64,000 nt of DNA from Rhynchopus sp. YZ270_cl-10 (taxonomy: Eukaryota; Euglenozoa; Diplonemea; Diplonemida; Diplonemidae): positions 1,481,364 through 1,545,363 of the forward strand of contig OZ037866.1 of assembly GCA_964035575.1 (NCBI GenBank), written 5' to 3'. Both the position numbers and the translations under genes were made by a program. The notes beneath the pieces are model-generated. The model was not told where the DNA came from. It did not search any database and saw only the letters and a list, made by a program, of their open reading frames with translations. This document shows, piece after piece, positions 9,043 to 49,827 of this stretch. Within the stretch, counting starts at the first letter, position 1. Every line of letters begins with the position of its first letter.

Positions 9043-9057
9043 CTGCCCTACGCGCAG

Positions 9058-17727: not shown

Positions 17728-20700
17728 CCTCTAGCTACAGTCTGTCTGACTCGCAAAGAACTAACGTTGTGCTCTTTTGCTAACTTCCAACCACCCACCT
17801 CTACACATCCCACAGGAGTATTTCATACCCCTTTCTTGGTAACAACTTACACTTGAACAATCTGCAATGTCACTAGCAGTGTCCCTGACACTACTGTGCC
17901 TTGCCGCAGAACCACAATGCCCAACGGATTATCACTCGTGCATAAGGAAGCACCTACCCGAAGGTGTGAGTTACACTGGTGACAAAGAGTACTCCTGCAA
18001 CAGCTCGTCGTGGAAGGTGTACGACTACTGCTTCACAGAAGCATGCCCGATCCGTCTTGTCATCACGGACCCACCAGAGCTGCGTACGTGGATGTGTGCA
18101 ACAGACAACAAGTTCGAACCTTACAACCCAGCCGCACACATCGACCTGTACCACAAGCTGAACAACAAAGTGTTGGACATCCTGCCTGTCGGGAACCAGG
18201 CCACGTACGACAGAAGAGGGTGCAAGGACAGCGACTTCAGCGCAGGTGGGAAAGACTTCAACGGGAAGATTGCGATGATCCAGAGAGGCACCTGTGGCTA
18301 CAGTGCAAAGGGTATTACTGCACAGACTGCAGGTGCAAGCATTGCGATTGTGTACGACTACTACCTGTACTACTTCCGCAGGTCCATGGGAGGTGACTCA
18401 ACTGGACTCACCATCCCCACACTGTATGTGGCAAGACACTTGGGAGAGGTGGTGGTGAAGGCAGCTGAGAGTGGGAAGGCAGTGAAGGGTAAGATTGAGT
18501 TCAATTGCGACAGGACGCCCACCCATTCGTTTGACCAAGGTGCAGACTACCCTTGGGATGGATGTGCCTCAAACAGGATGGATTTGGCGAAGACCTGCAA
18601 AACAGTTGAGAACGACAAGCAGGAGCGGTTGTGCGAGAAGTGTGCATTGGAGATGCAGCTGCCTGGTGCGGAGACGCTGTGCTTCTTTGGAAACGACCTG
18701 CGTCCGAGGAAGAGAGAGACGCTGTTCCACCTGACGACACCCCTCCCATACAACTCACCTGCGGACGAGGTTGTGTTCGCATCTGAGCTGCCGGGCAGAG
18801 GGTGCCTGGCATCTGACTTTGCTGAGTTGCGTGGCAAGATGGTGATCATCCCCGAGACAGGTCGCTGTACGCTTGTGTCGTCGGTTATTCTTGCGCAAGA
18901 AGCAGGTGTGAAGGCGTACATGATGGTGACGTCGACGTACTACCTGCAGTGGTACCGTATCAGAGCCTACTCCCACTTTGTGACAATCCCTGTGCACACA
19001 ACAGACTACCACGCACACGGGAAGTTGACTGTCTTCGGACAGGCGAAGGGGACGTACAAGGCAGGGATTGGGTACGTTTTCCCTGCTGTGTTGTTTCAGG
19101 AAGGTGCGTACCCAGTAACAGACCCACCAACACCTGCTCCGACAGACGAGCCAGAAGTGTCGAACGTTCTCGAACTCGACACGTCTGCAGACTTTGAGTG
19201 GAAAACAGGTACAATTATATGTCTGGTTGTGATCATTCTGGACACACTGCTGCTGGTTGGGATCTTTGTGAAGCAGCAGCGCGACCGTGTTGTGCTGCCC
19301 GAGGAGGCTGTGCCAGAAGGTGCGTCGATCCCGCTTGGGTTGGCGCTGATGGGTGTGTCGCTGACGCTTCTGATCCTGATTGCGGTTGTGACGTTCACAC
19401 TGACACATGCGGCAGGGAAGGACTCGACGGACAAGGCGTTGGAGAGTGGGAGGTTCGCAATTGACGTGACGCACGCAAATCTGGGGAAGAACACTGTGGA
19501 GCTGGCTGACCAGATTCGTGGTACGGTTCTTGCAACTGTGACACAGGCCCTGACGGATGAGGTGCGCCAAGTTGAGTACAAGCTGAAGGTGGTGCAGAAC
19601 ACGTTCTATGGCTTCAACGAGTCCTTCCAGTCGTTCAATGAACGGTTCTACACACTGATGCGACTTGTGAGGAATCAGGACACAACAATCGATTCCACCC
19701 GATTCCAGGTGTTCACAACACGTGGCTTCTTTATGAACTACCGTTACATGACTGACGACAGGGACGATGCTGCACGCAACGACGGTGTGGTGGGACCTGT
19801 CCAGCAAACACAGGCAGGGTGGCTGTACGGCTACAACCATTACGAACAGAACTTGGTTGATCGTGTGTTTTACGTTGGCGGTCACACACAAAACTATGAA
19901 TCCAACGCGTCCAGGATGCTTGGGTCGAACTACGGAGATCCGTCCTCAGTCACTGTGGGGAAACCTGCAAACCATGTGCAGTGGATGCCGTCGAAGGTGA
20001 CATTCCCGTTTCCGTTTCATGGGATATCAACAATGATGAGTGCTTTTGTACCTCTTGGGAATGAAGGAGCTTACATGGGTACCATTGAAGCACACATGTC
20101 GCTGAGTGGCTTTGTTTCTTCCGCCCTTGCGTCACAGAAAAGCAAAAACCTTGAGAACATGACTTTGTTGATCTTGGATCGTGAGGACAGGACCATCTTT
20201 GGTTCTCAGGGTTCAGGTGCTTCTGCAACCCAGAATCAAGGGAAGGTCTTCACCACGGATTACACGAACATGTACAGTCTGTACACCACCATCACGTCAC
20301 CATCTGTGATCGTGAAGGCCTTCGACGAGTACATGACAAGCAGGGGTGGATGGGGTGAGGACAAGGAGATCACAGGTGAGTTTGACCAGAAGGAGTACTT
20401 CACTCACCAGGACCACCTGATGCTGACAGACATCACTGCTGAGGGTGGGAAGGCAAAGGACACTGGGTCGCACGGGTGGGACGTGGAGATGCGTGACGGT
20501 GCTTGCGGGAACTGTGTTGCACACGACGCGCAAGTGGGCAAGGACGTGCTGGAGTTTGACGGGAGCACGACACTGCACCTGTACAGAAACTTCACGAAGA
20601 ACACAGAGATTGTGAAGCGCCACACCACGTCTACGTCGCCGTACATGAACTCGATGAGTGCGTACCAGGAGGTGCACACCTTTCCGGACGGCTCGGAGTG

Positions 20701-22519
20701 CATTGCACACACCACACGGACGTCGCCCACTACTTCCGAAACACGTTGCATGCTTCGTGACGACATCTTTGCTGGTGGCTACTTTGCCATCAACATGCGT
20801 ATTAACCCGTCGGTTGTGTACGATGAAACGTCTCCCGGTGCCTCAACACCCCGTCTCCTCTCGGACACACTTGTTGGTGAGGCGAATGTACGACTGTTTG
20901 CGAACGGGCAGTTGTACCTTGGGATCTTCACGTACGGGTGCAGGACGAAGGCCATCGAAGGTGGTCTTCCTATCAACTCTTGGACCACACTGACTGCTGT
21001 TCTGAAGAGCTCTGGTGGGAAGAGCTACTGCCGTGTTTACCTGAACGGGACACAGTACAGTGAAGGACGGTCTGTTAGATATAGTGACGAAATCAGAAAC
21101 CACGCAGAACCTATTCGTGTTGGGCAGTACTTCCGAGGACGTATTGATGCACTTCAGCTGTTCTGGATGCATCTATCCAATAAGGAGATCCGTGCACTGC
21201 ACACAGAGAGGAAGCTTGTGCGTGAAGTGTACTCGAAGGTGCGTTACGTGGAGACACAGAACCTGAACTTGAACGGGCAGGAGACACGCGGAAACTTGCG
21301 TGCAGGAGTGTCGTGGCTGGTGGCAGCAATGATCCCACGTCAGGACATCATGGGGATTGTGGACAAGAATAACGCAGAAGCAAAACAGAACCTTGACACG
21401 CAGGAAGCAAACACAAACAGAGAAGTGAAGCAGAAGGCGAACGCAACGATCATGATCATAGTTGCGATGGCAATGTCGTCTGTTGTGATCTTCTTGGTCT
21501 TCAACGATCTGATCACTACGCCTTTTGAGCAGACGGCTCTGCTGATGGCGGAGGCAGCTGTGTTGCGTATTGACACAATGCCGGAAACGAAGTCGTTTGT
21601 GCGTGAGCTGCAGACAATGAACCAAGCGATGGTGCTGCTTCTGTCGAACCTGCAGATGTACAAGAGTTACATGCCACAGTCCTTGGTCATGGACAGAGAC
21701 GACGACGACGATTTGTGTAAGATTTCGAGTAATAGCAGTTTGTCATCAGGATCGAGGATGTCCCGCAGTTTGGGGTCGTCAGTTACGACAAGCAAGTTTT
21801 CCAATAGTGGCCATGCTGGGATGGGTGCATCTGCGGTGAAGAAGCAGATGGTCACGTCACTTTCAAAGAAAAGGTTCTCATTTTGTGTGTTGAACATTGT
21901 GAACTGGCACAAAACAGTTAGTGAAGTGACAGAGGAGGAAGCCATCCACATGCACGCAGATGTGCTGGACATGTTCTTGGTGATATGTAGTTATAACAAA
22001 GGTGTTTGCGAAGTCTTCTGTGGCGACAGGATGTCGTGCAGCTTCAACGCCGCCAAGCCAGCAACCGGACACAAGCAGAAGGCCGTAAGCAGTGTGGACA
22101 GCACGTTATGTAAACTGAAGGAGGCACAGAGTGTGCTCGAGCTCTCGGGATCATGTGTGTCGGGAGAGGGCCGTGTGGGTAACATTGGCACGCAGAGCAT
22201 GAAGCGGTTCGCGCTTCTGTCGCCCACAGTCACAGTAGGTTTCGCACTGGAGAGGTTTGCGAAGGAGTACGGTCTTGGTATTACGATTGATTCCAATGTG
22301 CAGGTGGAGGGCGGCCACTGGTACTCCCTCAAGCTCGTCGACTCTTACATTTTCCCAAAGCTGTGTGAGAAGCCATTGAGAATCTACCAGCTGATTGGGA
22401 AGAAGGTGGAACAGGAGGTGGATGAATGGATGTACCAACTGGCCGCAGGCGAGAAGTCCGACAAGATGCTTTCCTGGAACACGTGGGTTGCAGCTGTGAT
22501 TGACGGTGACTTTGAGGTA
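17728..22519 (+). repeat. Segmental duplication, copy A (receptor gene)
   Basis: Matches 31023-35826 with an offset of 13295 bp at the left end and 13307 at the right. Similarity begins about 140 bp before the ATG at CCTCTAGCTACAG and stops at the exon 1/intron border. Between these points identity alternates between near-perfect and strongly diverged stretches. Confidence 0.95.
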
Positions 22520-23066
22520 TTTCTTTTGCTTTTTGTTATCACTGTTCATTCATAAGGGGAATTTGCACACTCAAAAATACCAAAAAAAATCCTGCCTGGT
22601 CGGCAAAAGTTTCCAACTTAAAAATGCCAAAAAAACTTTTATTCTGATGCATTTCCGGTGCAATCCTTTTGGCTGTGGTAGAGTAACTTTGAAAAAATGT
22701 GCAAAACACCGGCCGTCCATATTACGCCGCACACTTTATGGATATTTGGTATTAGCACTGAACACTATTTAAGGCCATTTTCATCCCCACCAAACACCAT
22801 AAATAGTACCAAATCTTCTCCTTATTTTTTTTTGGCAGTCATACCAGGGTGCAGGGCGATTGCTGTCTTCTTTTTTAGGAGTCTCAGTCGATGTTCATCT
22901 TTTAACGTTTCTTTTCTTTTGCACTGCACGTTCTCTCCCACAGGGTGCCAGCGCACACGAAGTTGCCGCCGCAAGCATCGACTGCTCGAGTGCTGTTTAC
23001 AGAAAGATCAAGAGCGCTGCCAAGTCACTTCATTGGGAAGCAGGGCCCATGACTTTCACGTACTGA
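17867..23066 (+). CDS. Large receptor with PA, Cache-like, LamG-like and cyclase-homology domains (copy A)
   Basis: Exon 1 is 17867-22516 and exon 2 is 22944-23066; the intron runs GTATTT...CCCACAG, in phase 0, giving 1590 residues. Order: signal peptide (1-15); Cys-rich start; PA-like domain (about 113-210, RRGCKDSDF..GKIAMIQRGTC); second PA-like domain (about 311-400); TM1 (447-467) and TM2 (488-513); a large loop with a Cache-like part (about 600-810) and a LamG-like part (about 893-1110); TM3 (1193-1212); a linker with MYKSYMPQSLV; and class III nucleotide cyclase homology (about 1337-1515, VGNIGTQSMKRF). The first metal Asp is Asn1343 and Asp1387 is kept, but the Asn and Arg of the VNxAARLE helix are Thr1456 and Ala1460. 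Cyclase activity is therefore doubtful; it may act as a regulatory pseudo-cyclase. Exon 2 supplies a conserved tail (IDCSSAVYRKIKSAA). Confidence 0.8.
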
Positions 23067-23898
23067 GTGAGGCTTTTACGTTATTTGTCTCCACCGAAGC
23101 TTCGCAACCCATCAAACAATTATGTGCAAAGAAGCAAGGAGGTTGTCCCAAACCCTTATAGGGGCTTCCTGACCCGGAAGTCCGCGCTCTTTTTGCAAAC
23201 CACTCACTTTTCAGGTTCCACAAAATGTTTCAGCTTGAAATTGTTTTTCCAAAAATTTCTGCTGTAACAAATTGTTGAGGCTGACCTTTCCCCAGAGGGG
23301 GGGAAGGGCGAGGCTCTTTCGTGGTGAGCCTGAAGACCCCTTTTAGCAAAATGTAGCAACGCTTCTGCGTTGTTGTTCTTTCTGTTTTCACTGTTGTACT
23401 GCTGTCTCCAATAACCGTTGAAGTATTTTCTGTGAGTGCAATGCACACTTTTTGTCGGTTCTATAGAAGCTGTGTTTGACTCTTCTCCTACCGCATTGCA
23501 CAGTTCAAAGATACACGTGGTCAAACGACACGTTGCCTTCTTTATTACAAAGCCTCTTTTTTTTAAAAGTGACTATCGGTTATTATTTTATTACGTTTCT
23601 TGCGCACTATTTTTACACATTTTTTTAGCTCTAACAAGTTACACCTTTTTTTAGCAGCAATTGAAGATTTTTTTTTGTTCTTTTTGAATGTTCACTTTAT
23701 GTTATTGGACACTTCTTCTGTGCACACAAGCAGTTGTCAGTGAGGCTTATGCATTCCAACTTGTCTTCATGTTTTGGATGTCACCGATGTGCTTCTTCAA
23801 GGATTTTCTTCAAAGGGGGGTGGTCTGAACCCTGTTTGGAACACAAACCACACCAATTTCTCACCCCTTTCTCACAGGCCTGTAAAGAAACAAGTAAA
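23067..23898. other. Intergenic region between receptor A and the dehydrogenase
   Basis: No gene seen. The last 30 bp before the next gene are a pyrimidine tract ending TTTCTCACAG (AG at 23876-23877), 21 bp before the ATG: a possible splice acceptor. Confidence 0.4.
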
Positions 23899-24654
23899 AT
23901 GAACTTTGCTGGCAAAAACGTGTTGATCACTGGGGCAAGCCGTGGCATCGGCAAGGCAACCGCCATTGCGTTTGCGAATCAGGGCGCGCATGTGGCTCTG
24001 AACTACCGCGCAAACGACGCGGCTGCAGAAGAGACCTTGGGCATGCTGGCGGGCTCGGGACACCACTTGCTGAAGGCCGACGTCTCGACGTCGGAGGGCT
24101 GCCAGGAGCTGATGGCACAGTTTGCACGCACCTTTTCGCGACTGGACGTGCTTGTGAACAACGCTGCTATCGCAGTGCAGCACCCACTAGACGAGACAGA
24201 CTTCGACACGTGGGTAGGTGTTTGGGACGCCACCCTCGACACGAACGTCCGCTCCGTCGCAAACATGTGTTTCTTAGGCGCGAAGCTGATGAAGGCTACT
24301 GGCGGCGGCAGCATTGTCAACGTCTCTTCGCGTGGTGCCTTCCGTGGCGAGCCCGACATGCCTGCGTACGGCGCGAGCAAGGCTGCTGTCAACGCTCTCA
24401 GTCAGTCGCTGGCAAGAAAACTTGCACAGGACAGCATCTCCGTCATGGTCGTTGCACCTGGGTTCACTGTCACAGAGATGGGCGTCGCGGGCCTGACCGA
24501 CGAGCGCAAGAAGGAGCTCACAGACCAGTCGCCCTTCAAGCGCATGGCGGAGCCTGAGGAAGTTGCACACTCTATTCTGTTCCTCGCCTCGCCAGGCGCA
24601 GCGTACAACTCTGGTGCGATCCTTGACATCAACGGTGCGAGCCACCTTCGCTGA
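23899..24654 (+). CDS. Short-chain dehydrogenase/reductase (FabG-like)
   Basis: 251 residues from ATG 23899, the usual length for classical SDRs. The frame continues upstream, but the pyrimidine tract with AG at 23877 and the Rossmann fold starting at MNFAGKNVLITGASRGIGKA make this Met the natural start. It shows the cofactor motif TGASRGIG (about 10-17), NNAA (about 85-88), the catalytic Ser in IVNVSSRGAF (about 138) and YGASK (Tyr about 152, Lys about 156). A basic or neutral residue after the second strand (NYRAND) suggests NADP(H). The closest known class is 3-oxoacyl-ACP reductase and similar sugar or alcohol dehydrogenases; the substrate cannot be assigned. No targeting peptide seen. 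It appears intact and intron-less. Confidence 0.9.
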   Translation: MNFAGKNVLITGASRGIGKATAIAFANQGAHVALNYRANDAAAEETLGMLAGSGHHLLKADVSTSEGCQELMAQFARTFSRLDVLVNNAAIAVQHPLDETDFDTWVGVWDATLDTNVRSVANMCFLGAKLMKATGGGSIVNVSSRGAFRGEPDMPAYGASKAAVNALSQSLARKLAQDSISVMVVAPGFTVTEMGVAGLTDERKKELTDQSPFKRMAEPEEVAHSILFLASPGAAYNSGAILDINGASHLR

Positions 24655-25010
24655 GAGTCGTGTGCATAGGGTCGGGTGTGTTTTATGGGTTACTTTTGTC
24701 CTGTGACCACGACACGTGGGTGACAGGTCGTGTACGTGTTGCGCGCGTGGTCTGTGCTCCCTCTAGCAGCTGAGGACTTCGCTCACGTGTGTTTTGTTTG
24801 TAGATTTGCTGAAGAAAAGGATCTTTCTCAAGTTATAAACGCTATGCTATACGCTATGCTATACAAACGTGACAACCTGGAGGGTTGCTGGGGGAACGTT
24901 CGTACACGTGCTTTTGATGAGTCATTTTACATTTTTTGCGCGCTAATCCTCCATGTGCCATGTGAAAAATAGTATTTTTTTACCTTGCCAGTACACTTTC
25001 TTCTGTCTTA
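24655..25010. other. Downstream region of the dehydrogenase
   Basis: Holds a short direct repeat GCTATGCTATAC around 24842-24863; nothing else recognised. Confidence 0.4.
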
Positions 25011-25125
25011 CTGGGGGGGGCCGAATATAAGAAAGGGGTCGAATATAAGAAAGGGTTGGAAAATGGCGTTTTTCATTTCTTTTTACCTCTAATATAAGAA
25101 AGGGGTATCTTATATTTAACTCTCG
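25011..25125 (+). repeat. G-rich terminal repeat with ATATAAGAAAGGG boxes, left
   Basis: Begins TA then CTGGGGGGGGGCCGAATATAAG and carries three TATAAGAAAGGGG boxes, ending ...GTATCTTATATT. An inverted relative ends at 30920. The two could be ends of one 5.9-kb element or two separate short elements. Confidence 0.6.
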
Positions 25126-25174
25126 CGGTGATTTCAAAGAAAAGATTTTTTTTATTTTTTTGAGATTTTTCATA

Positions 25175-25385
25175 GGGTGAAAACGATCGTTTTTTTTTTT
25201 TTTTTTTTTTTACGAATCTGGGAAAAAGTGATCGGTCTTTTTTTTTTTTTTTTTTTTCACGATCGTGAAGAAAAAAAAAACGATCGTTTTTTTTTTTTTT
25301 TTTTCTTCACGATCGTGAAAAAAAAGCACCTTTTTCTTCACGATCGTGAAGGAAAAAAAAACGATCGTTTTTTTTTTCCCATATT
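25175..25385 (+). repeat. Poly(T)/poly(A) array with ACGATCGT palindromes
   Basis: Alternating T-runs and A-runs are separated by the palindromes CACGATCGTG and ACGATCGT (about seven occurrences). The whole stretch could fold into hairpins. A similar array is at 28870-28985. Confidence 0.85.
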
Positions 25386-26470
25386 ATGTCGTTGATCGCT
25401 GGCCCACACCAGGGAGGGAGCCCCCACAGGTGCCCACAACCCCCCTGAAATCGGCCGAGAGTAACTTTTAGCGGTGTTTTGACGTAAAATGTCACCTTTT
25501 TTGCCATTTTTGGGGTGTACTTTTCTGGAACAAAATTCGCAAAACCCGAAATACGAATCGTAAAAAATCGCGACATTCTATGACATGCGTATACCATGAA
25601 GCAGCACGTCACGGCATGGCATGTAACATGCACATGTAATATCGCCAAAAACCTAGTCGTAGTAACATCATCACTGTGCAAACCCCTGTCCATCCAATAC
25701 AATTCACACTCTTTGTGGGTGGTCTTGCTGCCTTTTTGCCACAGTAATTTTTGGCCCGGCAGGCATGCTCTTGAAGCATGGCAATTTAGTGTGTATGGGG
25801 CAGGGTGTTGTTTTGTTCTGAATTCCCTTTGTTACAATATCTATCCAATCGCGAGTGGTTGTATGTGTATCGTGAGACACTCTTTTTAACCCTTTACGGA
25901 CCAAGAGGACATTTATGCCCATTGTGGCGGGGGATGCGGCGTTCAACACCAGGCCAAGTTGGCCAAAAGCCCCAACTTTTGTACTGTCCAACCTCTGTAC
26001 AATTACGGTATATTTCGTTGGCTGGTGGTCTGAAGAGTGATCTGACCATATTCTCCAGGTATAACAAATGCCCAAATAATGCATTGGCGAAGGAATTTTG
26101 CACTTTTGACCATCACACATTACTTGTATTTTTACCGGTTTTTTAATGAGTACAACCTATGTCAGAGCACGCTGTCCCACAGATTTTAGAATTTGGGGGG
26201 GTCACGCAACAGGGATTACGCAGCTCCCCATACTTATCGCTAAATATGCCGTTTTCCCCGAAAAATTTTAGAATTCCACGCCCAATTTCTTTCTTTTTGG
26301 CAAAAAAAGGTCCTCAGAAGCTCAATTCCGGAAACAAATACGGGGGGAGCGACGTTTTCCAACTCCTCCGCCATCAGCAGGAACACCTCCGTTTTCTCTT
26401 GAATCTGTGACGCTTGTTGCTGAGAAACAGGGCAACAGCGCGTTCAAGCATATTCCCCATATTTTCAGTG
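25386..26470. other. Intergenic region
   Basis: No gene seen. TTAACCCTTTACGG at 25888 resembles a piggyBac-like end. Confidence 0.4.
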
Positions 26471-26477
26471 TTAAACT

Positions 26478-26825
26478 CGTGGCGAAGCCACGGTACGCAA
26501 CATTTCTAAAAAATGCGCTTACAATTGCACCTTTTTTTACAGCCAAACTATGTCATGGAAAGGATGTAATGCAAGCTTGCGCCGCAGGCGCATGGTACGC
26601 TACTTTTTTCTTTGCCCTTATCCTTCTTTCTCACTCCTCATTGCTTCCCAAAGGTTCTGGCGAAGCCACGGTACGCAACATTTCTTTAAAATGTTGACAT
26701 AAAATGGCACTTTTGTTGGTAACTATCGTCCAGTTCCGTAAATTTTACTTCCATATTTTGCTAAAACGAAAGTTTCTAGCGAAGCCACGGTACGCAACAT
26801 TTCTAAAAATTGCGCTTAAAATTGC
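26478..26825 (+). repeat. Three spaced copies of GCGAAGCCACGGTACGCAAC
   Basis: Copies start at about 26482, 26660 and 26779, each followed by ATTTCT and an A-rich stretch with GCGCTTA(C)AATTGC in two of them. A GCGCCGCAGGCGCATGGTACGC sequence lies between copies 1 and 2 (about 26580). Unknown role. Confidence 0.75.
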
Positions 26826-27171
26826 CTACTATGTCGCGGGAAGGGTGGGTTGAAAGCTCGCGCCGCAGTGCATCTTCCTTTTCTGGTAAAATAGAAGAAA
26901 ATTGTCTTCTAAAAATAGATCTGTGGGGGGTAGGTGAGAGGTGGGCGGAGCCCCCACTCCTCACCTAACCCCACCCCAGCCTCAATCCAAAACCCTGTAT
27001 TTTTTTTTTGGTATTTTTTGAGCTGAGATTTTCAAAAAATACCAAAAATACCAGGGTCAACCGCTGTGATGCTCATTGTTTAGAACACAGGGCTATTTCT
27101 AAATATGGGGTCCGGAGTCCAAAATCCAATCCGGGACACAATTTTGGCAGATTTATTTTGGGCCAAAAACG

Positions 27172-27325
27172 TCTTCATTTACATTTTTGGGATTCGCCCG
27201 TGCAGTGGTGGGGTCAATCTCGAAAATTGTATTTTTTGACCACTTAAATTTTGGGAAATATGAGCCCGGTCACTTATACGTGGGCCCATTTTCGGCTAAA
27301 ATTTTCCTCAAAATCCGGGTTTGTA
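27172..27325 (+). repeat. Dispersed GTGGGGTCAAT repeat, copy 2
   Basis: Runs from TTTACATTTTTGGGATTCGC through GTGCAGTGGTGGGGTCAAT to AATTTTCCTCAAAATCCGGG. Strongly similar to 37914-38090 over its whole length. Confidence 0.8.
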
Positions 27326-27364
27326 AAATTGACCCTTCTGTGAAGGAAGGTTGTGGAAAAGGGT

Positions 27365-27430
27365 CCTTATTTGCATTTTTGGAAGCCGCCCGTGCAGTGG
27401 TGGGGTCAATTTGCAGAATTGGGCAAGTTC
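27365..27430 (+). repeat. Dispersed GTGGGGTCAAT repeat, copy 3 (short)
   Basis: Only the core TTTGCATTTTTGGAAGCCGC to GGGGTCAATTTGCAGAATT is present. Confidence 0.75.
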
Positions 27431-27564
27431 TTGCAAGACAACGGGTAATGTTTGTTAGATCTAAGGAGGGAAGGGGAGCGTTTGTAGCTCACACAGCACC
27501 CCAAACCCTGGCCTCTCTGTCCACAGCACACAGCTCTTCCCCTGAGTTCCATTTGTGACTCAAC

Positions 27565-27948
27565 ATGCTGAGCGCATCTTCAGTACGATGGGTGGATGAG
27601 CGAGAAGAGGCGCAACTGGCTAGTTGCACCAAAGCTGCACAAGCTTGTGGTCGTAGCACGCAGTTTGCGCGAGAGCAAGCCGCCACAAGAGAATGGTTGC
27701 AGGAGGAGAAGGAGCGTGCGGGAGCTATATTGACTGCGACGCGACAGCTGAGGACCCCAAGGTTGATGATGATGCTGAGCATCACGACTCTGACATCAGT
27801 GAAGGCTCTTGGGACTAAACGCATACAGTCTTGTCCGTACCCATTTCTCCCACACAAGTCACCACCCCCTTGTGACTTGCCTGTAACAGTGGAAACGTTT
27901 CCCTCCCAGCCGCAAACCCGTTCAGTGTATCGTGAGCCACTGCAGTGA
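27565..27948 (+). CDS. Hypothetical small protein (doubtful)
   Basis: 127 codons from ATG 27565, about 40 bp after a pyrimidine tract with AG at 27525-27526. The first 60 residues are Glu/Ala/Gln-rich and likely helical (DEREEAQLASCTKAAQ...EWLQEEKERAG); the rest looks less like protein. In the +1 frame the sequence from about 27720 reads a plausible acidic tail ending KVDDDAEHHDSDISEGSWD, stop at about 27817. A frameshift or an unseen small intron could join the helical start to this tail. Expression is unproven. Confidence 0.3.
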   Translation: MLSASSVRWVDEREEAQLASCTKAAQACGRSTQFAREQAATREWLQEEKERAGAILTATRQLRTPRLMMMLSITTLTSVKALGTKRIQSCPYPFLPHKSPPPCDLPVTVETFPSQPQTRSVYREPLQ

Positions 27949-28329
27949 CCCACTCACGCTCGACCCTGTCCCTCCTTGTAAACAGTTCGCCTTCTCCTAC
28001 GTTGTGCTAAGGAAAACCAAAAAACATGCTCAAAAATGATGGGCACGGGGGTCAGACTCCACTTCTGACCACCTAAAATTAGGTCATACACGTGTTATAC
28101 CCCAAACTGACCAAGAAATTTTCCCAGTGTTCGATGGTGATCGAATTAAATCGGTGGTAAAAAGTGAAAAATGGGGCATGCCAGGCCCACGTCAATCAGC
28201 CTAAAAATGTTGCAACTTTAAACGCGCGTCTCTCCCGTACACCAATATACACTTTTTAACACATACAGTACAGCAAGGGAAAACCAAGGGATTTTACCCT
28301 GTGTTCTCCTTGTTACGGCTGCACTAACC

Positions 28330-28820
28330 TAATCATCAAAACTGCTCGATTTTGGCTTTATCTAAAAGATCGACATCAATTCTTACGAAATATAATTTAT
28401 TTTACGATTTTGAGTAGAATTCTGTTTGCAGGGCGAAGTCACGAGGCAGGGGGTGATTTTGGGGGTGAGCGCCAAAAAAAGTCCTTTTCCTAGGGTTGAC
28501 CCACCTCCCTCCAGCATCCAACGATATGACATTTTCACGAAAGTTGTCGATTCTTGCCTTATTCTTGTCACACAGAAAAAAAATGTTTTTACGAAAATGA
28601 GTAGAACCCCATTACCCCTACCAACGTGTGGCATTCGTGCGCCACTATAGTGGCACTTGCTATGGGTAAAAACGGTTTTCTGGTTTTAGTGCCTCGCTGG
28701 CGACATCCGTTGGGGGGGGATTCTGGTGTGAGAATGTTCTCGATTTTTGCTTTATTTGAAAGATTCGCCACAAAATCGTTTCAAGGAAAAGAGTCGGTCA
28801 AAAAGTCCAAGTAGAACCCA
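28330..28820 (+). repeat. 'AAAGAT...GAGTAGAACCC' repeat, second site
   Basis: Three diverged units ending GAGTAGAATT, GAGTAGAACCCC and AAGTAGAACCCAG. The last one (from TTTGAAAGATTCGCCACAAA) closely matches 12167-12235. Confidence 0.7.
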
Positions 28821-28869
28821 GAAACTCTCCCTTGCCACCCATTTCACGCCCATGCCCCTTGTACTACTA

Positions 28870-28985
28870 GAGGAAAAAAAAAAACGATCGTGAAAAAAAA
28901 AAACGATCGTGAAAAAAAAAAAAAAAATGTCAAGATCTTGAAAAAAAGTTCAAGATCTTGAAAAAAACCGTCACGATCGTTCTCA
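28870..28985 (+). repeat. A-run array with ACGATCGT and CAAGATCTTG palindromes
   Basis: Two AAACGATCGTGAAAA units, two TCAAGATCTTGAAAA units and a closing GTCACGATCGTTC in about 115 bp. Related to 25175-25385. Confidence 0.85.
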
Positions 28986-29789
28986 CACTATGATTTTTAT
29001 TTCTTTTGAAAGCGCGGTTTCGAAATGTTCAATTCCGGGGTCGGACGATAAAAAATATGCATCTGGGTCGAGTGAGTGAAAAATCTGAAAAATGATACGC
29101 AATTTCGGAGAATGTGTGATATAAGATAGGGGTATCTTATATTAAACTTTGAGCTTTATCTAAAGACTCTGTACATATTAGGGCGTCCCAAGGGCAACTC
29201 ACATACGCCCAAAGCTTATTTTCTTAGGGTAGCACAATTAAAATTATTGTTTAGTGTCATGCGTGCGAACAGATTTTGGAAATCTAAAAAAAAAAAATAA
29301 TAATAATTGTTCGTCTCGGAGGGCATATCTCGTCTTTCTGCAGAGACAGCATGCTGACGTCTTTCTGCAGGTTTTCGGCAAATGGAAAGAGGACCTGCAT
29401 CATCGTTCGCTTATACCCAAAAAAGCGAAACAAGGGGACTGAGTGACTACGATGCAGAACATCTGCACCATCATCAGCTGCCCTCTACAACTAAAAAAGT
29501 AGCGTACCGTGCGCCTGCGGCGCTGTGTTGCTGGCTATTTGATGTTGATATATTCCCATTGATACTTCTGTGTATTGCCTCCTTTTTTTTTAAGGAGGCT
29601 TCGGTGCAAGCGACGAGTACATTCACTTTCTATTACATGTTGCAAATGCAGCTGTAATCACTCTCACAAGACCCATTACCTTGTTAAGCTTCCACCCCCG
29701 ACCCATCATCGCACTTTTCCCATGTTGGCTTGCTAAGTGACAACACGATGGTGAAGTCACTCAGTGTAAGTATCTGCGTATGTACCAAG

Positions 29790-29862
29790 AACTTGTCCAT
29801 TTTGGCAAAGTGACCCCACTACTGGACGGACGGATTCCAAAAATGCAAATGCCGGTGTTTTT
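29790..29862 (-). repeat. Dispersed GTGGGGTCAAT repeat, minus-strand copy
   Basis: Reads, on the + strand, GTGACCCCACTACTGGACGG then ATTCCAAAAATGCAAATGCC, the complement of the family core. Confidence 0.75.
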
Positions 29863-30392
29863 TGGACGATGCATATTTCCCGGCCAAAAACCCCACAAAT
29901 ATAAAGCAACGAGGCGAAAAGACACGTGATACACGGGTGTGTGGTTTTTTGTGAATTTATGTGAATGTTTGTGAAGGTTTCGTGCAGGTGTTGCGAATTT
30001 TTGTGAACTTTTGTGAATTTATGTGAATCGCTAGTTTGGTGTGGCTAAAACCAGCAAATTTCACTGATAAAAAAGATCGGGTCTTTTGTTTGTGCGCTCA
30101 AAGCCGGGAAAACAAAAAGGTGAAAAAATGTGTTAAACTGAAGTACGGTTGTTGTGGTTAATTGAGTACTCAAAGAAAACAAGCAAGCTTCTGTTTTTTT
30201 CAATCCGTTTTGTTTGCCCTGCAGCGCTGCCTCCAATCTTTTTAGAATTGACAACAAGTTGTTTTATCAAAAAAAATGCTCACAAACTGCTAAATAATAC
30301 CCTTTTTTTAGGGGTGGTGTATAAAAACATTTTTTTACCTTGAGGTTTTTCCACTCCCCCTGTTGACGCGCCTCCACTCTTGCATACCCATG

Positions 30393-30496
30393 TGTGACCC
30401 CACCGTTGAACGCAATCGACTCGCTGAGTCAAAAGAACGCACAGAACGGGGCTGGAAAAAAATCCCGAAAGACGCGTACCGTGCGCCTGCGGCGCC
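30393..30496 (+). repeat. CACCGTGGAGAGCAATCGG repeat, diverged copy 4
   Basis: GTGACCCCACCGTTGAACGC to CGTGCGCCTGCGGCGC, with the same A/G-rich middle as the copies near 13.3-15.2 kb. Confidence 0.7.
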
Positions 30497-30516
30497 CACA
30501 ACGTGAGTTTTCCCCC

Positions 30517-30650
30517 TGTGTATACTGTGTATACTGTGTATACTGTGTATACTGTGTATACTGTGTATACTGTGTATACTGTGTATACTGTGTATACTGT
30601 GTATACTGTGTATACTGTGTATACTGTGTATACTGTGTATACTGTGTATT
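30517..30650 (+). repeat. (TGTGTATAC)n minisatellite, about 15 copies
   Basis: A 9-bp unit, open in all six frames. The same unit in the opposite orientation forms the array at 47981-48236. Confidence 0.95.
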
Positions 30651-30667
30651 GCGGAAATTGACCAAAA

Positions 30668-30745
30668 ACGAGAACTTGTCCATTTCTGCAAATTGACCCC
30701 ACCACTGGACGGACAGATTCCGGAAATGCAAATGCCGGCGTTTAA
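30668..30745 (-). repeat. Dispersed GTGGGGTCAAT repeat, second minus-strand copy
   Basis: AAATTGACCCCACCACTGGA then GGAAATGCAAATGCCGG, directly next to the 9-bp array. Confidence 0.75.
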
Positions 30746-30784
30746 ACTGGTAGAAACACGGGTATTCGGTTATGTTTTGTAGTT

Positions 30785-30920
30785 TAAGTTGAATAAAGTT
30801 GAATATAAGATACCCTTTCTTAAATTAAAAAATTTAAATTAAATTTTTTAAAACCTTCATTTTCGCTTAATTCTTACGCATATTATAAGATACCCTTTCT
30901 TATATTCGGCCCCCCCCCAG
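30785..30920 (-). repeat. G-rich terminal repeat with ATATAAGAAAGGG boxes, right (inverted)
   Basis: On the minus strand it reads CTGGGGGGGGGGCCGAATATA then AAGGGTATCTTAT; a TA follows at 30921-30922. The mirror of the 25011 sequence. Between its boxes is a perfect-looking AT hairpin (AAAAAATTTAA and complement). Confidence 0.6.
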
Positions 30921-31022
30921 TAATATGGTTCTCCTGGGGACAATAAAGGCTACACAGGACCGCACATCCTCTCGTGTCCCATTCCTTCCCCTTTCTCACT
31001 TGCACTGCCGCACGTGCACCCG

Positions 31023-34000
31023 CCTCTAGCTACAGTCTGTCTGACTCGCAAAGAACTAACGTTGTGCTCTTTTGCTAACTTCCAACCACCCACCTCTACA
31101 CATCCCACAGGAGTATTTCATACCCCTTTCTTGGTAACAACTTACACTTGAACAATCTGCAATGTCACTAGCAGTGTCCCTGACACTACTGTGCCTTGCC
31201 GCAGAACCACAATGCCCAACGGATCGTAACTCGTGCATAAGGAAGCTCCTACCCGAGGGTGTCAGTTCCACTGGTGACAAAGAGTACTCCTGCAACAGCT
31301 CGTCGTGGAAGGTGTACGACTACTGCTACACAGAAGCATGCCCGATCCGTCTTGTCATCACGGACCCACCAGAGCTGCGTACGTGGATGTGTGCAACAGA
31401 CAACAAGTTCGAACCTTACAACCCAGCCGCACACATCGACCTGTACCACAAACTGAACAACAAAGTGTTGGACATCCTGCCTGTCGGGAACCAGGCCACG
31501 TACGACAGAAGAGGGTGCAAGGACAGCGACTTCAGCGCAGGTGGGAAAGACTTCAACGGGAAGATTGCGATGATCCAGAGAGGCACCTGTGGCTACAGTG
31601 CAAAGGGTATTACTGCACAGACTGCAGGTGCAAGCATTGCGATTGTGTACGACTACTACCTGTACTACTTCCACAGGTCCATGGGAGGTGACTCAACTGG
31701 ACTCACCATCCCCACACTGTATGTGGCAAGACACTTGGGAGAGGTGGTGGTGAAGGCAGCTGAGAGTGGGAAGGCAGTGAAGGGTAAGATTGAGTTCAAT
31801 TGCGACAGGACGCCCACCCATTCGTTTGACCAAGGTGCAGACTACCCTTGGGATGGATGTGCCTCAAACAGTATGGACTTGGCGAAAACCTGCAAAACAG
31901 TTGAGAACGACAAGCAGGAGCGGTTGTGCGAGAAGTGTGCATTGGAGATGCAGCTGCCTGGTGCGGAGACGCTGTGCTTCTTTGGAAACGACCTGCGTCC
32001 GAGGAAGAGAGAGACGCTGTTCCACCTGACGACACCCCTCCCATACAACTCACCTGCGGACGAGGTTGTGTTCGCATCTGAGCTGCCGGGCAGAGGGTGC
32101 CTGGCATCTGACTTTGCTGAGTTGCGTGGCAAGATGGTGATCATCCCCGAGACAGGTCGCTGTACGCTTGTGTCGTCGGTTATTCTTGCGCAAGAAGCAG
32201 GTGTGAAGGCGTACATGATGGTGACGTCGACGTACTACCTGCAGTGGTACCGTATCAGAGCCTACTCCCACTTTGTGACAATCCCTGTGCACACAACAGA
32301 CTACCACGCACACGGGAAGTTGACTGTCTTCGGACAGGCGAAGGGGACGTACAAGGCAGGGATTGGGTACGTTTTCCCTGCTGTGTTGTTTCAGGAAGGT
32401 GCGTACCCAGTAACAGACCCACCAACACCTGCTCCGACAGACGAGCCAGAAGTGTCGAACGTTCTCGAACTCGACACGTCTGCAGACTTTGAGTGGAAAA
32501 CAGGTACAATTATATGTCTGGTTGTGATCATTCTGGACACACTGCTGCTGGTTGGGATCTTTGTGAAGCAGCAGCGCGACCGTGTTGTGCTGCCCGAGGA
32601 GGCTGTGCCAGAAGGTGCGTCGATCCCGCTTGGGTTGGCGCTGATGGGTGTGTCGCTGACGCTTCTGATCCTGATTGCGGTTGTGACGTTCACACTGACA
32701 CATGCGGCAGGGAAGGACTCGACGGACAAGGCGTTGGAGAGTGGGAGGTTCGCAATTGACGTGACGCACGCAAATCTGGGGAAGAACACTGTGGAGCTGG
32801 CTGACCAGATTCGTGGTACGGTTCTTGCAACTGTGACACAGGCCCTGACGGATGAGGTGCGCCAAGTTGAGTACAAGCTGAAGGTGGTGCAGAACACGTT
32901 CTATGGCTTCAACGAGTCCTTCCAGTCGTTCAATGAACGGTTCTACACACTGATGCGACTTGTGAGGAATCAGGACACAACAATCGATTCCACCCGATTC
33001 CAGGTGTTCACAACACGTGGCTTCTTTATGAACTACCGTTACATGACTGACGACAGGGACGATGCTGCACGCAACGACGGTGTGGTGGGACCTGTCCAGC
33101 AAACACAGGCAGGGTGGCTGTACGGCTACAACCATTACGAACAGAACTTGGTTGATCGTGTGTTTTACGTTGGCGGTCACACACAAAACTATGAATCCAA
33201 CGCGTCCAGGATGCTTGGGTCGAACTACGGAGATCCGTTCTCAGTCACTGTGGGGAAACCTGCAAACCATGTGCAGTGGATGCCGTCGAAGGTGACATTC
33301 CCGTTTCCGTTTCATGGGATATCAACAATGATGAGTGCTTTTGTACCTCTTGGGAATGAAGGAGCTTACATGGGTACCATTGAAGCACACATGTCGCTGA
33401 GTGGCTTTGTTTCTTCCGCCCTTGCGTCACAGAAAAGCAAAAACCTTGAGAACATGACTTTGTTGATCTTGGATCGTGAGGACAGGACCATCTTTGGTTC
33501 TCAGGGTTCAGGTGCTTCTGCAACCCAGAATCAAGGGAAGGTCTTCACCACGGATTACACGAACATGTACAGTCTGTACACCACCATCACGTCACCATCT
33601 GTGATCGTGAAGGCCTTCGACGAGTACATGACAAGCAGGGGTGGATGGGGTGAGGACAAGGAGATCACAGGTGAGTTTGACCAGAAGGAGTACTTCACTC
33701 ACCAGGACCACCTGATGCTGACAGACATCACTGCTGAGGGTGGGAAGGCAAAGGACACTGGGTCGCACGGGTGGGACGTGGAGATGCGTGACGGTGCTTG
33801 CGGGAACTGTGTTGCACACGACGCGCAAGTGGGCAAGGACGTGCTGGAGTTTGACGGGAGCACGACACTGCACCTGTACAGAAACTTCACGAAGAACACA
33901 GAGATTGTGAAGCGCCACACCACGTCTACGTCGCCGTACATGAACTCGATGAGTGCGTACCAGGAGGTGCACACCTTTCCGGACGGCTCGGAGTGCATTG

Positions 34001-35826
34001 CACACACCACACGGACGTCGCCCACTACTTCCGAAACACGTTGCATGCTTCGTGACGACATCTTTGCTGGTGGCTACTTTGCCATCAACATGCGTATTAA
34101 CCCGTCGGTTGTGTACGATGAAACGTCTCCCGGTGCCTCAACACCCCGTCTCCTCTCGGACACACCTGTGGGTGACGCGAACGTGCGACTGTTTGCGAAC
34201 GGGCAGTTGTACCTTGGGATCTTCACGTATGGGTGCAGGACGAAGGCCATCGAAGGTGGTCTTCCTATCAACTCTTGGACCACTCTGACTGCTGTTCTGA
34301 AGAGCTCTGGCGGGAAGAGCTACTGCCGTGTTTACCTGAACGGGACACAGTACAGTGAAGGACGGTCTGCTAGATCGAGTAGTGACGCCAGAAACCACGC
34401 AGAACCAATCCGTGTTGGGCAGTACTTCCGAGGACGTATTGATGCACTTCAGCTGTTCTGGATGCATCTATCCAATAAGGAGATCCGTGCACTGCACACA
34501 GAGAGGAAGCTTGTGCGTGAAGTGTACTCGAAGGTACGTTACGTGGAGACACAGAACCTGAACTTGAACGGGCAGGAGACACGCGGAAACTTGCGTGCAG
34601 GAGTGTCGTGGCTGGTGGCAGCAATGATCCCACGTCAGGACATCATGGGGATTGTGGACAAGAATAACGCAGAAGCAAAACAGAACCTTGACACGCAGGA
34701 AGCAAACACAAACAAGGAAGTGAAGCAGAAGGCGAACGCAACGATCATGATCATAGTTGCGATGGCAATGTCGTCTGTTGTGATCTTCTTGGTCTTCAAC
34801 GATCTGATCACAAAGCCGTTTGAGCAGACGGCTCTGCTGATGGCGGAGGCAGCTGTGTTGCGTATTGACACAATGCCGGAAACGAAGTCGTTTGTGCGTG
34901 AGCTGCAGACAATGAACCAAGCGATGGTGCTGCTTCTGTCGAACCTGCAGATGTACAAGAGTTACATGCCACAGTCTTTGGTCATGGACAGAGAGGACGA
35001 CGACGACGACACATACGAACCGTCCATTAGTGTTGTCAGGTCTGGTGTCTCGGACTCCAGGTCGCGTCAGTCGCGTACGACACACCGCAGTGCGTCGTCA
35101 GGTACGTCAGGCAGGCAAGCCGGAGTAGGTGCAGGTGCGGTGAAGAAGCAGATGGTCACGTCACTTTCAAAGAAGAAGTTCTCATTCTGTGTCATGAACG
35201 TTGTGAACTGGCATAAGACCGTGAGCGAGGTGGGCGAGGACAAAGCTATCCACATGCACGCAGGTCTGCTGGATATATTCTTGATGACGTGCTCTTCACA
35301 CAAAGGTGTTTGCGAAGTCTTCTGTGGCGACAGGATGTCGTGCAGCTTCAACGCCGCCAAGCCAGCATCCGGACACAAAGCAATGGCTGTGACTAGCGTG
35401 CATGGTACCAAAGAACTGCTGCTGCAGCAAGGCCAGGGATCACTCGAGCTCTCGGGATCATGTGTGTCGGGAGAGGGCCGTGTGGGGAACATTGGCACGC
35501 AGAGCATGAAGCGGTTCACACTTCTGTCGCCCACAGTCACAGTAGGTTTTGCACTGGAGAGGTTTGCGAAGGAGTACCAAATGGGTCTTGTCGTTGACTC
35601 GATCGTGCAGATGGAGGTGGCGCACTCGTACTCGCTCAAGACCGTCGACAGCATTCTTTTCCCAAAGCTGCGTTCCAAGCCGATGAGGGTCTACCAGGTG
35701 CTGGACAAGAAAGAGAAGCAGCAGGACGAGGAGTGGATGTACGAGCTGGAGGCTGGCGAGAAGGCTGACAAGATGCTTTCCTGGAACACGTGGGTTGCAG
35801 CTGTGATTGACGGTGACTTTGAGGTA
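31023..35826 (+). repeat. Segmental duplication, copy B (receptor gene)
   Basis: Counterpart of 17728-22519. The left border CCTCTAGCTACAG is shared; the right border is the exon 1 donor site, after which the two introns have nothing in common. Confidence 0.95.
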
Positions 35827-36269
35827 TGGCCGGGAGAGCTTTTGCGTCTTGTTGCTCAGGTGCTTGAGCAACTTCACATTATTAAAGTGAAGGTGGAGTT
35901 TCACCTATTATTGTATTCGAGGTGATTAAATTAAGCACGGATGGTGTTCAGCTTTCATGTGTTCCTGAAACCCCTGTCAAGGACACATGCCAATATAAGG
36001 CCCCTCCGGAACACCAACAGAGGTTTAGCTTATTTATGTATTTTTGCAAAAACACACGAGTCGTTGCTGATGGGCGACATCCTCCGTTCTTGCGAATAAT
36101 TTAGCTTCCAAACTTTCACTCTATTTGCCAACCCTCATCCTCCCCACAGAAAGCCAGCAAGTTTGAAGAGCCCGCCAGTGGCATCGACTGCGAGAGCTCT
36201 GTTTACAAAAGGATGAAATCCGCAGCACAGTCGCAGAAGTGGGAGTCTAGCAGCATGCTTTTCCACTAG
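31162..36269 (+). CDS. Large receptor with PA, Cache-like, LamG-like and cyclase-homology domains (copy B)
   Basis: Exon 1 is 31162-35823 and exon 2 is 36150-36269; the intron runs GTATGG...CCCACAG, phase 0, giving 1593 residues. Same architecture as copy A: signal peptide, two PA-like domains, paired TM helices near 447-513, a large loop with Cache-like and LamG-like parts, TM3 near 1193 and cyclase homology (VGNIGTQSMKRFTLLSPTVT). The same catalytic substitutions occur: FCVMNVV in place of the FADI Asp, and VTVGFALE in place of VNxAARLE. It differs from copy A in the first 40 residues, a short patch in the LamG part (about 1003-1075), the linker after TM3 (acidic DDDDD then Ser/Arg-rich), and patches of the cyclase region. 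The exon 2 tail (IDCESSVYKRMKSAA) is homologous to that of copy A. Probably a member of a larger surface-receptor family. Confidence 0.8.
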
Positions 36270-40925: not shown

Positions 40926-43384
40926 TATTTGTGGAGGTTTTTTTCTTTTTTATTTTTGTGAGATCAAACACTATGCGTTTCGGTGCAATCTACTATAGCA
41001 CTCGAACCCCCTCCCTCCCCCTTAGGGTTCCACCTTCCCTTCGTGAGCGTGTGCCTGGTGCAGGATCATTTCTTTTATTCAGTGAGAGCGTTTGCACTAT
41101 CAACTTCTTCACTTTTTTTAAAAGGAAACTTGAGATAATCATGTTTTAATCATTGTTTCAAGCTTTCTTTGTTTGGGTTTTGATGAATGCGCGAAGAGGT
41201 ATCGCATTTGTCATCACCAAGTGTGTTTCTGCTTCACCCTTTTTGGTGCTCCGGGAGGGGTCGATATTGACAGGTCGCTGACAGGTCGTTGACCGACTTC
41301 CGAAAGCACCACTTTTGGAAAATCTGAAAAGTTCTCCTTTCCGGATTCCACAAGGCCCCCTCCCCCATATTCCCAAATCCGACTCTTGATTTTTTTGTCC
41401 TTTTTTTTTAGTTAATAAACCTTGGCGACGCTCCTCGCTTCTGATTTCGTATGTTTGACACCTCACCCGCCATTCCACAGAGCGAAAAAAGATATAAAAA
41501 ACCGACATTTGAGTACAGACCTTTATACCAGGTAGGTGTACAGTGATTTGTCGATACAACAAATAAAAAAAAGACAAAAAGCGGAATCCCAAGACACCCC
41601 AGACAAATTGTGGAATCGGCAAGAGAGGTGCTGACGTACTGACGGACTCAATATTACGTTGTTCAACCTGAAGAACGCGTGAAAAGGAGGAGTTTTTTTT
41701 TTAAATGTGTCAAGTGTTAAAATTCTTTCCCAGTTCCCCCCCGGGATTCTCTTTTTATTCCATCCAGATTTTGTTTCCTATTCTTTTATCCCCCAAAATT
41801 TTTTTACAAAAAAAAAAAAAAAAACCGGGTTTGCGCAAACACTCCTCTTCCCATGGGGTCAGTCTGGAGGCACCTCATAGCCATTTCATGTATGAAAAAT
41901 GGAATAGGTAATAGAGGGCTGTTCTCCTTTTGCAGACTCCTTGGGTTCGTTGTCCGCAAGGGGCACGTTGAAAGAGGGTTGGTTATAAGGTTTTACAAAG
42001 TGTGTGTATTCTGCTCCCCCAGTCCCCTCCCCCTTTCCCCCCCTTTTGTTCCAAGGAGGTGTTTTTTTGCTCTCATTTTGTGCACACTGACGGATATCCG
42101 TTTTGATGCCTCTCAAGGTGACCAAGTGGTGGCTTAGGTTTCATCTCCAGCTTTCATTGGTTGACTATGTGGCTCTTTCTTTTTCCGCGTCAAAAAAGGG
42201 TTGTCCCCGACGTTTATTTGCACGAGGTGCCCAAGGCTGGACGGGATATGGTACATTTTTTAGCCTGGTGTCAGACCAGAGTTGTAGGTAACGAGTAACT
42301 CTGCCACACACCGGGGGGTGACGTGCGTTGTCTGTGTAACCTCCCGTCCCGTTCAGCGATAGATGATGGATAGTTGTCACACCCAAGGTGGGTGTCGCTC
42401 CTGCTCTTCTCTTCCCTCTTTCCACACGTCGTCTTCTTTTTCGACATTTTCCAGCAAAATTATGCTCTCCCAAAACTTCCTCCTCCCTCCCCCTCCCTCT
42501 CTTTCCTTTCAATTTTGGGTCTCTTTAACTCGATTACCCATTTTCGTACCCAGAAACGGGAATTGGGTATTTGAGAAGGTTACCCTTTGTTTTCTTTCCC
42601 TCGAACGAAAAAAAAAAAACAAAAAAAAACACCCCCCAAAAAAAAAATGTTGCTGCGAGTAGAGATTTTGCGAGATTGCAAGGCGTTGAGCCAGTCCTAT
42701 TGATTTTTTTTGAAAAAAAAAGGAAAAAAGGTGATTATGCAAAGCCTTGCTAGTGGGTAAGCAGGTTTCGTACTTAAAATGCAACATAAATGTGTCGTTG
42801 TTCACTTTAAAAGTAACAAAATTACTGCAACTGCTTTCTTGTAGAGTAGTCTGTCTTCAAAATAAAAAAGCTCTTTTTTTGTGGAACTAAAATACACGTT
42901 GACGGTGCGTGTATTGATTTTGAACTCATGAAAAAAAGAACAGGGTCAATAATTTTGCGTTCTTGATGTCTGCCTTCTTTTTCGTTTGCATCACTTTCCC
43001 CTAAATTCCTAAAGTTGTGAAGTGTGCAAATAACAAAATGGTTCTTATATACCATTTGTCGGAGCGGTGAAGTGAAACTAAAAGCAGATGTCATTCCCAG
43101 CTGATAGACGTACGTATTAGAATGGGCACCATTCTGTGGCAGCAATGCACTCTCGTCGGGTTTTGGGCCACCACACACCGCACTACAATTGCACTTCTTA
43201 CTGATGAAGACCATCCTTCTCCCTCTTCTTTCGTTTTCACACTTCATCAGTTTAGTCAGCAACGGTCACTCATTGCTGAGTTTGTATGTGATGGCCAGTC
43301 CTTTCTTTTTACGTACCTGTCTGATTATCGTCAGGTTCCAACACTTCACAACACTGCAGATACTATATTGATACCATTTTCACA
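40926..43384. other. Long intergenic region before the oxidase
   Basis: About 2.5 kb with A- and T-runs and C-rich tracts. No family recognised in any frame. The start of the oxidase is preceded by a weak pyrimidine stretch and CAG at about 43334. Confidence 0.4.
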
Positions 43385-49706: not shown

Positions 49707-49793
49707 ATTTACATACTCGCTTGACTAGTAAGTACCCCCTCTGTCACTGGATGTAGATAAAAAAAGCGAGCCTAGGGCTAAGTTGAACAACAC

Positions 49794-49822: not shown

Positions 49823-49827
<5 letters not shown>

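Follow-up and report, generated by a model that had tools for sequence, protein, structure and literature searches.

Here we report that a 64,000-nucleotide stretch of the genome of the diplonemid Rhynchopus sp. YZ270_cl-10 (hereafter the window; C34:1481364-1545363, at the right-hand end of contig OZ037866.1, here C34) carries two copies, A and B, of a receptor gene whose sensor-coding part has recently been overwritten by gene conversion or ectopic crossing-over. The two are older paralogues in a transmembrane receptor family of very large size whose outputs are of the class III cyclase type. Searches of the genome (152 Mb in 126 contigs) showed this family to be modular, with unrelated outputs joined to near-identical sensors either just before the output domain or before the linker that follows the third membrane span (TM3). 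Of these outputs, two are found repeatedly: an adenylate cyclase (AC) that has its catalytic residues in place and is predicted to be active, and a degenerate cyclase without them, predicted to be inactive. These findings make it highly probable that the family evolves by homogenisation of its sensors and exchange of its outputs, yielding sensor-matched active and inactive twins of which the inactive one may damp the signal of the other.

Copies A and B are mosaics of identical and strongly diverged sequence

Both copies lie on the forward strand, with open frames at 17843-22555 (A, 1570 residues) and 31138-35925 (B, 1595 residues) that overrun into an intron. With splice sites and second exons read by eye, copy A consists of exon 1 (17867-22516), an intron (22517-22943) and exon 2 (22944-23066; 40 codons and the stop), and copy B of exon 1 (31162-35823), an intron (35824-36149) and exon 2 (36150-36269; 39 codons and the stop). 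According to its translation and Pfam matches, exon 1 of copy A encodes a signal-like N-terminus, two stretches of the PA type (PA, 7.5e-17), membrane spans, a sensor region with a LamG-like domain (Laminin_G_3, 1.8e-4, under its cut-off), a third membrane span, a linker and a degenerate cyclase tail, in this order; copy B shares this architecture. Membrane spans, linker and sensor fold of the receptors were judged by eye. The stretch before the ATG (17728-17866 in A, 31023-31161 in B) is common to A, B and a further copy, C, and nothing further upstream can be aligned.

A global alignment with all differences listed confirmed the mosaic identity that the initial annotation had described for A and B, with small corrections to positions and counts. 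Rather than a dozen or so differences over 17990-20860, we counted seven (18033, 18157, 18378, 18577, 18583, 18592 and 19944), and a single one of them (19944) falls into the homogenised central sensor tract at 18593-20870 (B 31888-34165). The diverged patch that follows, previously placed at about 20868-21110, lies within the LamG-like domain at 20871-21115 and holds 19 differences. The next stretch, 21120-21690, had been called identical and is near-identical, with seven differences. Strong divergence, noted before for 21695-22085, extends with indels over 21697-22135, where it is interrupted by an identical run of 68 bases (21996-22063) that had gone unlisted. Near-identity returns at 22136-22270, with four differences where 22130-22260 had been read as identical. 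The final diverged stretch was recovered at 22271-22459 (22263-22440 in the initial annotation), and the short identical one to the exon end at 22460-22520, running through the end of exon 1 to just beyond its splice site. The introns of A and B fail to align, as had been stated, and so do the flanks, since blastn bounds the A/B alignment at 17724 and 22520; the second exons are diverged, though alike in protein.

Instead of being uniform along exon 1, synonymous divergence (dS) between A and B jumps between 0 and about 0.8. It amounted to 0.07 (17867-17990), 0.02 (17990-18600), 0 over 532 sites (18600-20865), 0.19 (20866-21117) and 0.04 (21118-21690), and in the tail to 0.73, saturation and 0.80 in the three diverged stretches and 0, 0.10 and 0 in the identical ones. 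In Fisher tests on regions that were picked after the pattern had been seen, synonymous differences in the centre (0/532 sites) were set against those in the patch (10/61; 6.6e-11) and in the tail (about 63/171; 7e-44). The rise in GC content at third codon positions that is expected of GC-biased conversion was absent from the homogenised tract (0.65, compared to 0.64-0.69 in the tails).

Had the whole gene been duplicated recently and only the tail then diverged fast, A and B should be closest to each other in the tail, as they are within the set of scored matches (70% in protein; next 40%). This scenario is refuted by the tail itself, with dS of 0.7-0.8 in two stretches and saturation in the third, and by the unalignable introns and flanks; a gene cluster on contig C4 (see below) breaks likewise. 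We therefore regard this explanation as very unlikely, and the earlier view that a simple recent duplication is insufficient is upheld. Strong purifying selection rather than conversion, with a constrained sensor core and patches free to vary, could draw on the ratio of nonsynonymous to synonymous divergence (dN/dS), which at 0.27-0.53 among five copies with this sensor (A to E, see below) indicates that the sensor is constrained, and on some tail runs that fall on conserved motifs. However, synonymous sites are unchanged as well in the central tract and not around it, C, D and E differ there synonymously from A (dS 0.02-0.36 by subregion), and the old age of the copies is evident from their introns, flanks and tails. 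Contradicted by the synonymous counts, this account is scarcely tenable. Uniform divergence was rejected, just as simple recent duplication and protein constraint alone were.

Five copies sharing one sensor are mutual mosaics

Three further genes in the genome carry the A/B sensor, namely C (C34:1293149), D (C34:1384289) and E (C90:477686, minus strand), with sensor identities of 97, 94 and 92% over 2801 bases and a whole-sensor range of 91-97% between A/B and C, D and E at the nucleotide level. The frame of copy C (L009/L010) is broken within the sensor, which marks either a pseudogene or a sequence error.

The closest relative of each copy changes along the gene. C and D are 100% identical in windows starting at 20372, 20522 and 20672, and drop to 88, 78 and 88% where the window begins at 19637, 20087 and 20237. 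In the three windows from 21551 on, all pairs among C, D and E reach 98-100%, with C-E at 76-99% in the preceding sensor windows. B equals C at 11 of the 13 A/B difference sites in 17930-18592 and at 13 of 19 in 20871-21115; in the centre, it is A and B that share a base where C differs. B appears nearer to C outside the central tract and nearer to A inside it, which is the signature of a conversion tract. A triple test (a child and two parents, permuted sites) found incongruent closest relatives in 17 of 30 triples, at or under the Bonferroni limit for 60 tests, although this test treats sites as independent and alone cannot tell tracts from islands of constraint. A Sawyer-type permutation, serving as the breakpoint test for conversion that had been proposed, gave P = 0.0016 for A-B among the five copies, and none of the other nine pairs fell below 0.05 (lowest C-D, 0.059); the same test on A and B alone was dropped as meaningless with two sequences.

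Together, the jumps of dS within one exon, the unalignable introns and flanks and the five mutual mosaics support the repeated gene conversion between older paralogues that had been suggested; gene conversion or ectopic recombination is well supported as the origin of the A/B mosaic. That such conversion spares the intracellular signalling part holds only in part. The A/B tail, too, has identical runs resembling conversion tracts, though the controls for them were imperfect, and in C, D and E few stretches are as homogenised as the start of the catalytic module. The presumed resemblance to diversification of surface receptors is reversed for the A/B subfamily, in which the sensor is homogenised while the output varies; a short-sensor subfamily behaves in the opposite way.

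Fragments of this sensor with stops, two of them with tail remnants, occur on three other contigs (L006, C3:363402; L007, C16:1592728; L008, C7:47729). They are 98.6-98.9% identical to each other where alignable and about 80-82% to A/B, as for an old decayed copy that was apparently copied recently onto three contigs. As recent donors they were rejected, given their stops and about 80-82% identity to A/B over long stretches (88-89% over short ones).

One AC cassette recurs across four sensor classes

The likeness of A and B to C, D and E ends at a module junction (21659-21676) that reads YKSYMP in A/B and YKKFLP in C, D and E. Beyond about 21659, identity by window is only 30-49%, that is, the sequences are not alignable. 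A and B continue with the degenerate cyclase tail (21659-22516 in A, 34954-35823 in B; 72% identical in protein), whereas C, D and E continue as a class III AC (VFTDI, KTIGDAF, TVNVASRLE), followed by a second, degenerate cyclase-like domain. PF00211 (Guanylate_cyc) scored above its cut-off at C34:1296908, C34:1388071 and C90:476222, and both metal-binding Asp residues as well as the transition-state Asn and Arg are present in all three by eye. In the whole genome, at least 150 class III cyclase matches (150 scored of 493 candidates) all exceed the Pfam cut-off, and many are clustered, for example on C17, C8 and C12.

With 1001 bases of E as query, nine other genes were found at 94-97% (C, D, C34:1304477, C34:821754, C34:1280106, C34:1252616, C34:1435100, C34:1287026 and C11:1261460). 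The next ranks were taken by A and B, over query positions 2-279 at the sensor end only, and then by other cyclases at 73-79%. Two breakpoints recur: one just before YK(K/S)(F/Y)(L/M)P in A/B, the C34:1280106 type and the C11 gene, the other at NLITKPFEQ following TM3 in C34:1304477 and C34:821754. Over 160 codons, dS of the AC cassette among the ten genes is 0-0.11; the 330 nucleotides upstream match at only 35-40% across differing sensor classes and at 71-73% between classes I and II (defined below), which have a common linker. By few substitutions, the cassette of C is closer to that of C34:1280106, which has another sensor (dS 0.017), than to that of D with the same sensor (0.044).

In a tree of 31 sensor ends, which left out L034 (short frame) and did not include the short-sensor loci L039-L046, the output changed five times, with at least three changes forced by starred branches. 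A single clade of AC carriers was rejected (approximately unbiased (AU) test, p = 2.1e-8; with a long-branch warning). C and its neighbour C34:1304477, which have differing sensors, are alike at 96.8% through the linker, the AC cassette and some 260 bases that follow the stop codon. This is what unequal crossing-over alone would leave if it replaced the 3' half without internal conversion tracts; but the sequence to the left and to the right of the central A/B tract is more diverged than the tract itself, and divergence within the sensor is island-like, so that we consider crossing-over as the sole process improbable.

The tail of A and B is a degenerate class III cyclase

The A/B tail is common in the genome, with at least 140 matches (the best 140 of 795 candidates). 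Retrieval of 30 of these 140 yielded an alignment (A1) of 19 sequences, comprising A, B and 17 of 28 other tail loci. No Pfam cyclase was detected in the 19 members up to an E-value of 10. Their profile, searched against PDB chains, nevertheless found adenylate cyclases (2w01, E 2.7e-6; 6fht, 2.9e-5; 3r5g, 1.9e-4), and by this profile evidence the tail is assigned as a degenerate class III cyclase.

What the metal-binding Asp residues and the transition-state Asn and Arg do in class III cyclases is well known. In all 19 tails, the first metal Asp is replaced by Asn, the second is retained, the transition-state Asn is replaced by T, S, P, A or G, and the Arg by A or V; the output of A and B thus lacks the complete set of catalytic residues. 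At the same time, an invariant Asn, GD and EWMY are found in 19/19 aligned tails. The tail appears to be under selective maintenance rather than decay, since dN/dS between A and B is near 0.4 outside the identical runs (0.282/0.728 and 0.306/0.804).

Four sensor classes occur with both outputs

The ten cassette genes fall into four sensor classes. Degenerate-tail relatives exist for all four, unequally: three classes are matched over nearly the whole sensor compared (91-99%), the fourth only in its membrane-proximal half. Near-identical sensors on two different intracellular outputs, the hallmark of paired receptors, are thus found to this extent in each class.

Class I comprises the degenerate A and B and the AC genes C, D and E, matched over the whole sensor at 91-97%. 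In class II, degenerate receptors (C80:1186100, C80:1199090 and C80:1142640) stand against the AC genes C34:821754 and C34:1304477, with the break at the boundary of TM3 and linker; up to the membrane span, identity is 95% over the last 902 (C34:821754) and 625 bases (C34:1304477), and a separate segment of 291 bases further out matches at 91%. Class III consists of nine copies on C34 that are 98-100% identical over the last 600 bases, four of them with the AC cassette (C34:1252616, 1280106, 1287026 and 1435100). Among the five others, three were retrieved, one (L064) with a shorter frame; these degenerate members (C34:1394147, 1423694 and 1444432) are distant matches to the tail profile (E 1.4e-10, 9.4e-4 and 1.6e-12). 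Further out, one AC/degenerate pair of this class shares 92% over the 1791 bases preceding the last 600. In L064, a perfect tandem repeat with a period of 56 bases (1234-1776) follows shortly after a class III receptor with a degenerate tail. In class IV, 39 of the 40 sensor matches scored (best 40 of 98 candidates) lead into a degenerate tail and one into an AC, with 92-97% identity over the last 555 bases or so; this assignment of outputs drew on 43 of the 140 tail places and two AC places.

The junction recurs in other gene clusters

Seven clustered genes on C4 have sensor ends that are 96-99% and tails that are 70-90% identical (21 pairs), with the break at the same junction as in A/B. On C80, one gene breaks at the junction when compared to two others, between which near-identity is kept all along. 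In the short-sensor subfamily (described under Discussion), the relation is turned around. The polarity seen in A/B is therefore not universal; homogenisation acts on regions of the gene, and which region it favours depends on the subfamily.

Other features of the window

A short-chain dehydrogenase gene (adh_short_C2, 9.3e-55) lies at 23899-24654 (+), soon after copy A, and multicopper oxidase domains (Cu-oxidase_2, 9.8e-17) are found in an 875-residue frame at 43325-45952 (+). An open frame of 3297 residues at 49787-59680 (+) belongs to a retroelement; it has a low-complexity N-terminus and encodes a reverse transcriptase (2.1e-20) as well as an OTU cysteine-protease domain (2.7e-6). About 2.6 kb ahead of this frame, a 5S rRNA match occurs at 47094-47209 (+; 40.6 bits, Rfam threshold 38). 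A 933-residue frame at 8892-11693 (+) is probably a second retroelement, given a weak reverse transcriptase match (1e-5, under the cut-off).

Discussion

Several observations weigh against the proposed combination of sensor homogenisation, output exchange and pairing of twins. The Sawyer-type test fell below 0.05 in only one of the ten A-E pairs and passed correction in only one of 21 pairs of the C4 cluster. Long identical tail runs exceeded a shuffled null in 16/16 within-contig pairs, but also in 3/6 between-contig pairs, so that some of these runs are explained by protein constraint. In short-sensor degenerate receptors (L039-L046; C11, C88, C93 and C25), the tail is more alike than the sensor. 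Class IV is matched in the membrane-proximal half only, because in the outer sensor its AC gene shares just 77-78% with the two degenerate neighbours used for comparison. The tail itself is distant from the AC: against a shallow AC alignment it reached E 0.16 (hhalign), its profile recovered no AC cassette (four tested, E up to 10), and this distance weakens the idea that a degenerate tail pairs with an active partner. A better match was obtained to the second, degenerate domain of C, D and E (E 8.7e-5, 60% probability). Family members were taken from the best-scoring candidates, so that family counts are lower bounds, and assembly or polishing errors may contribute to the pattern.

Vertebrate immunity offers known examples of paired activating and inhibitory receptors that gene conversion maintains, with signalling of the ITIM/ITAM type. 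In Siglec-11/-16, the sensors of a receptor pair are kept alike by gene conversion (PMC5701461), and as described there and for the CEACAM family (PMC2832619), a near-identical extracellular part, differing intracellular outputs and repeated conversion in the ligand-binding part are shared with the Rhynchopus genes. The vertebrate receptors are of the immunoglobulin type, whereas those of Rhynchopus contain PA and LamG domains, have cyclase-type outputs and comprise several sensor classes; moreover, their output cassette is itself homogenised across sensors.

Trypanosome receptor cyclases (ESAG4/GRESAG4) likewise form a large family with an extracellular sensor, a membrane span and a class III cyclase that is dimeric when active, forming homodimers on activation (PMC6027212). 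They combine a conserved catalytic domain with a variable sensor, and differ in having one transmembrane helix, Venus-flytrap-like sensors and catalytic domains that are 83-87% identical (PMC6027212). By Pfam, A and B contain no periplasmic-binding-type sensor of the trypanosomatid kind (PA and a weak LamG were found instead), and by eye they have several hydrophobic spans. T. brucei ESAG4 in which one metal Asp and the transition-state Arg were replaced acts as a dominant-negative (PMC6027212); in the parts of that article drawn on here, no naturally occurring twin is described that carries the sensor of an active receptor on a degenerate output. That protist cyclase arrays undergo gene conversion is as such already known, and is reported for tandem copies of a T. 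brucei AC array (PMC1855330). The transmembrane adenylate cyclases (TMACs) of Trichomonas have also expanded massively (about 123 genes) with evidence of gene conversion, but they are intronless, with many N-terminal membrane helices, one C-terminal cyclase and about 46% pseudogenes; the portions of the account used here report one strongly supported conversion or crossover event and no alternative output (PMC2914791). In the open-licence literature searched, we found no report of sensor-matched active/inactive pairs among protist cyclase receptors.

Alternatively, receptors with a degenerate tail might have an output of their own, through a partner protein or a bound ligand, unrelated to AC partners, and sensor sharing would be a by-product of recombination within clusters. 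The abundance of the tail, its invariant residues and its presence on nearly all class IV sensors scored speak for this explanation, to which we give close to an even chance. On the other hand, the residues lost from the tail include those replaced in the engineered dominant-negative AC, and every AC-bearing sensor class has degenerate relatives, in three cases over nearly the whole sensor.

Dimers are the working form of class III cyclases. Having sensor, membrane span and linker in common with its active twin, a degenerate receptor could pair with that twin or compete with it for ligand, and by analogy with the systems above may be its signalling partner or competitor. Such pairing or competition would damp or tune the output of cyclic AMP (cAMP), and gene conversion would keep both twins tuned to one ligand. 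A more far-reaching version, which we consider rather less likely than not, is that a protist has evolved genome-wide paired receptors independently of vertebrates, with an AC cassette grafted onto successive sensors that otherwise bear a conserved pseudocyclase, conversion keeping the twins ligand-matched and the pseudocyclase acting in nature as a dominant-negative or setting the threshold for cAMP. Rhynchopus would then provide a single-celled example in which sensors fall into several classes, modules meet at a sharp boundary that recurs, and the pseudoenzyme is devoid of the very residues removed in the engineered dominant-negative. This would make it testable how sensors and outputs can recombine without loss of signalling and whether pseudocyclases tune cyclase receptors.

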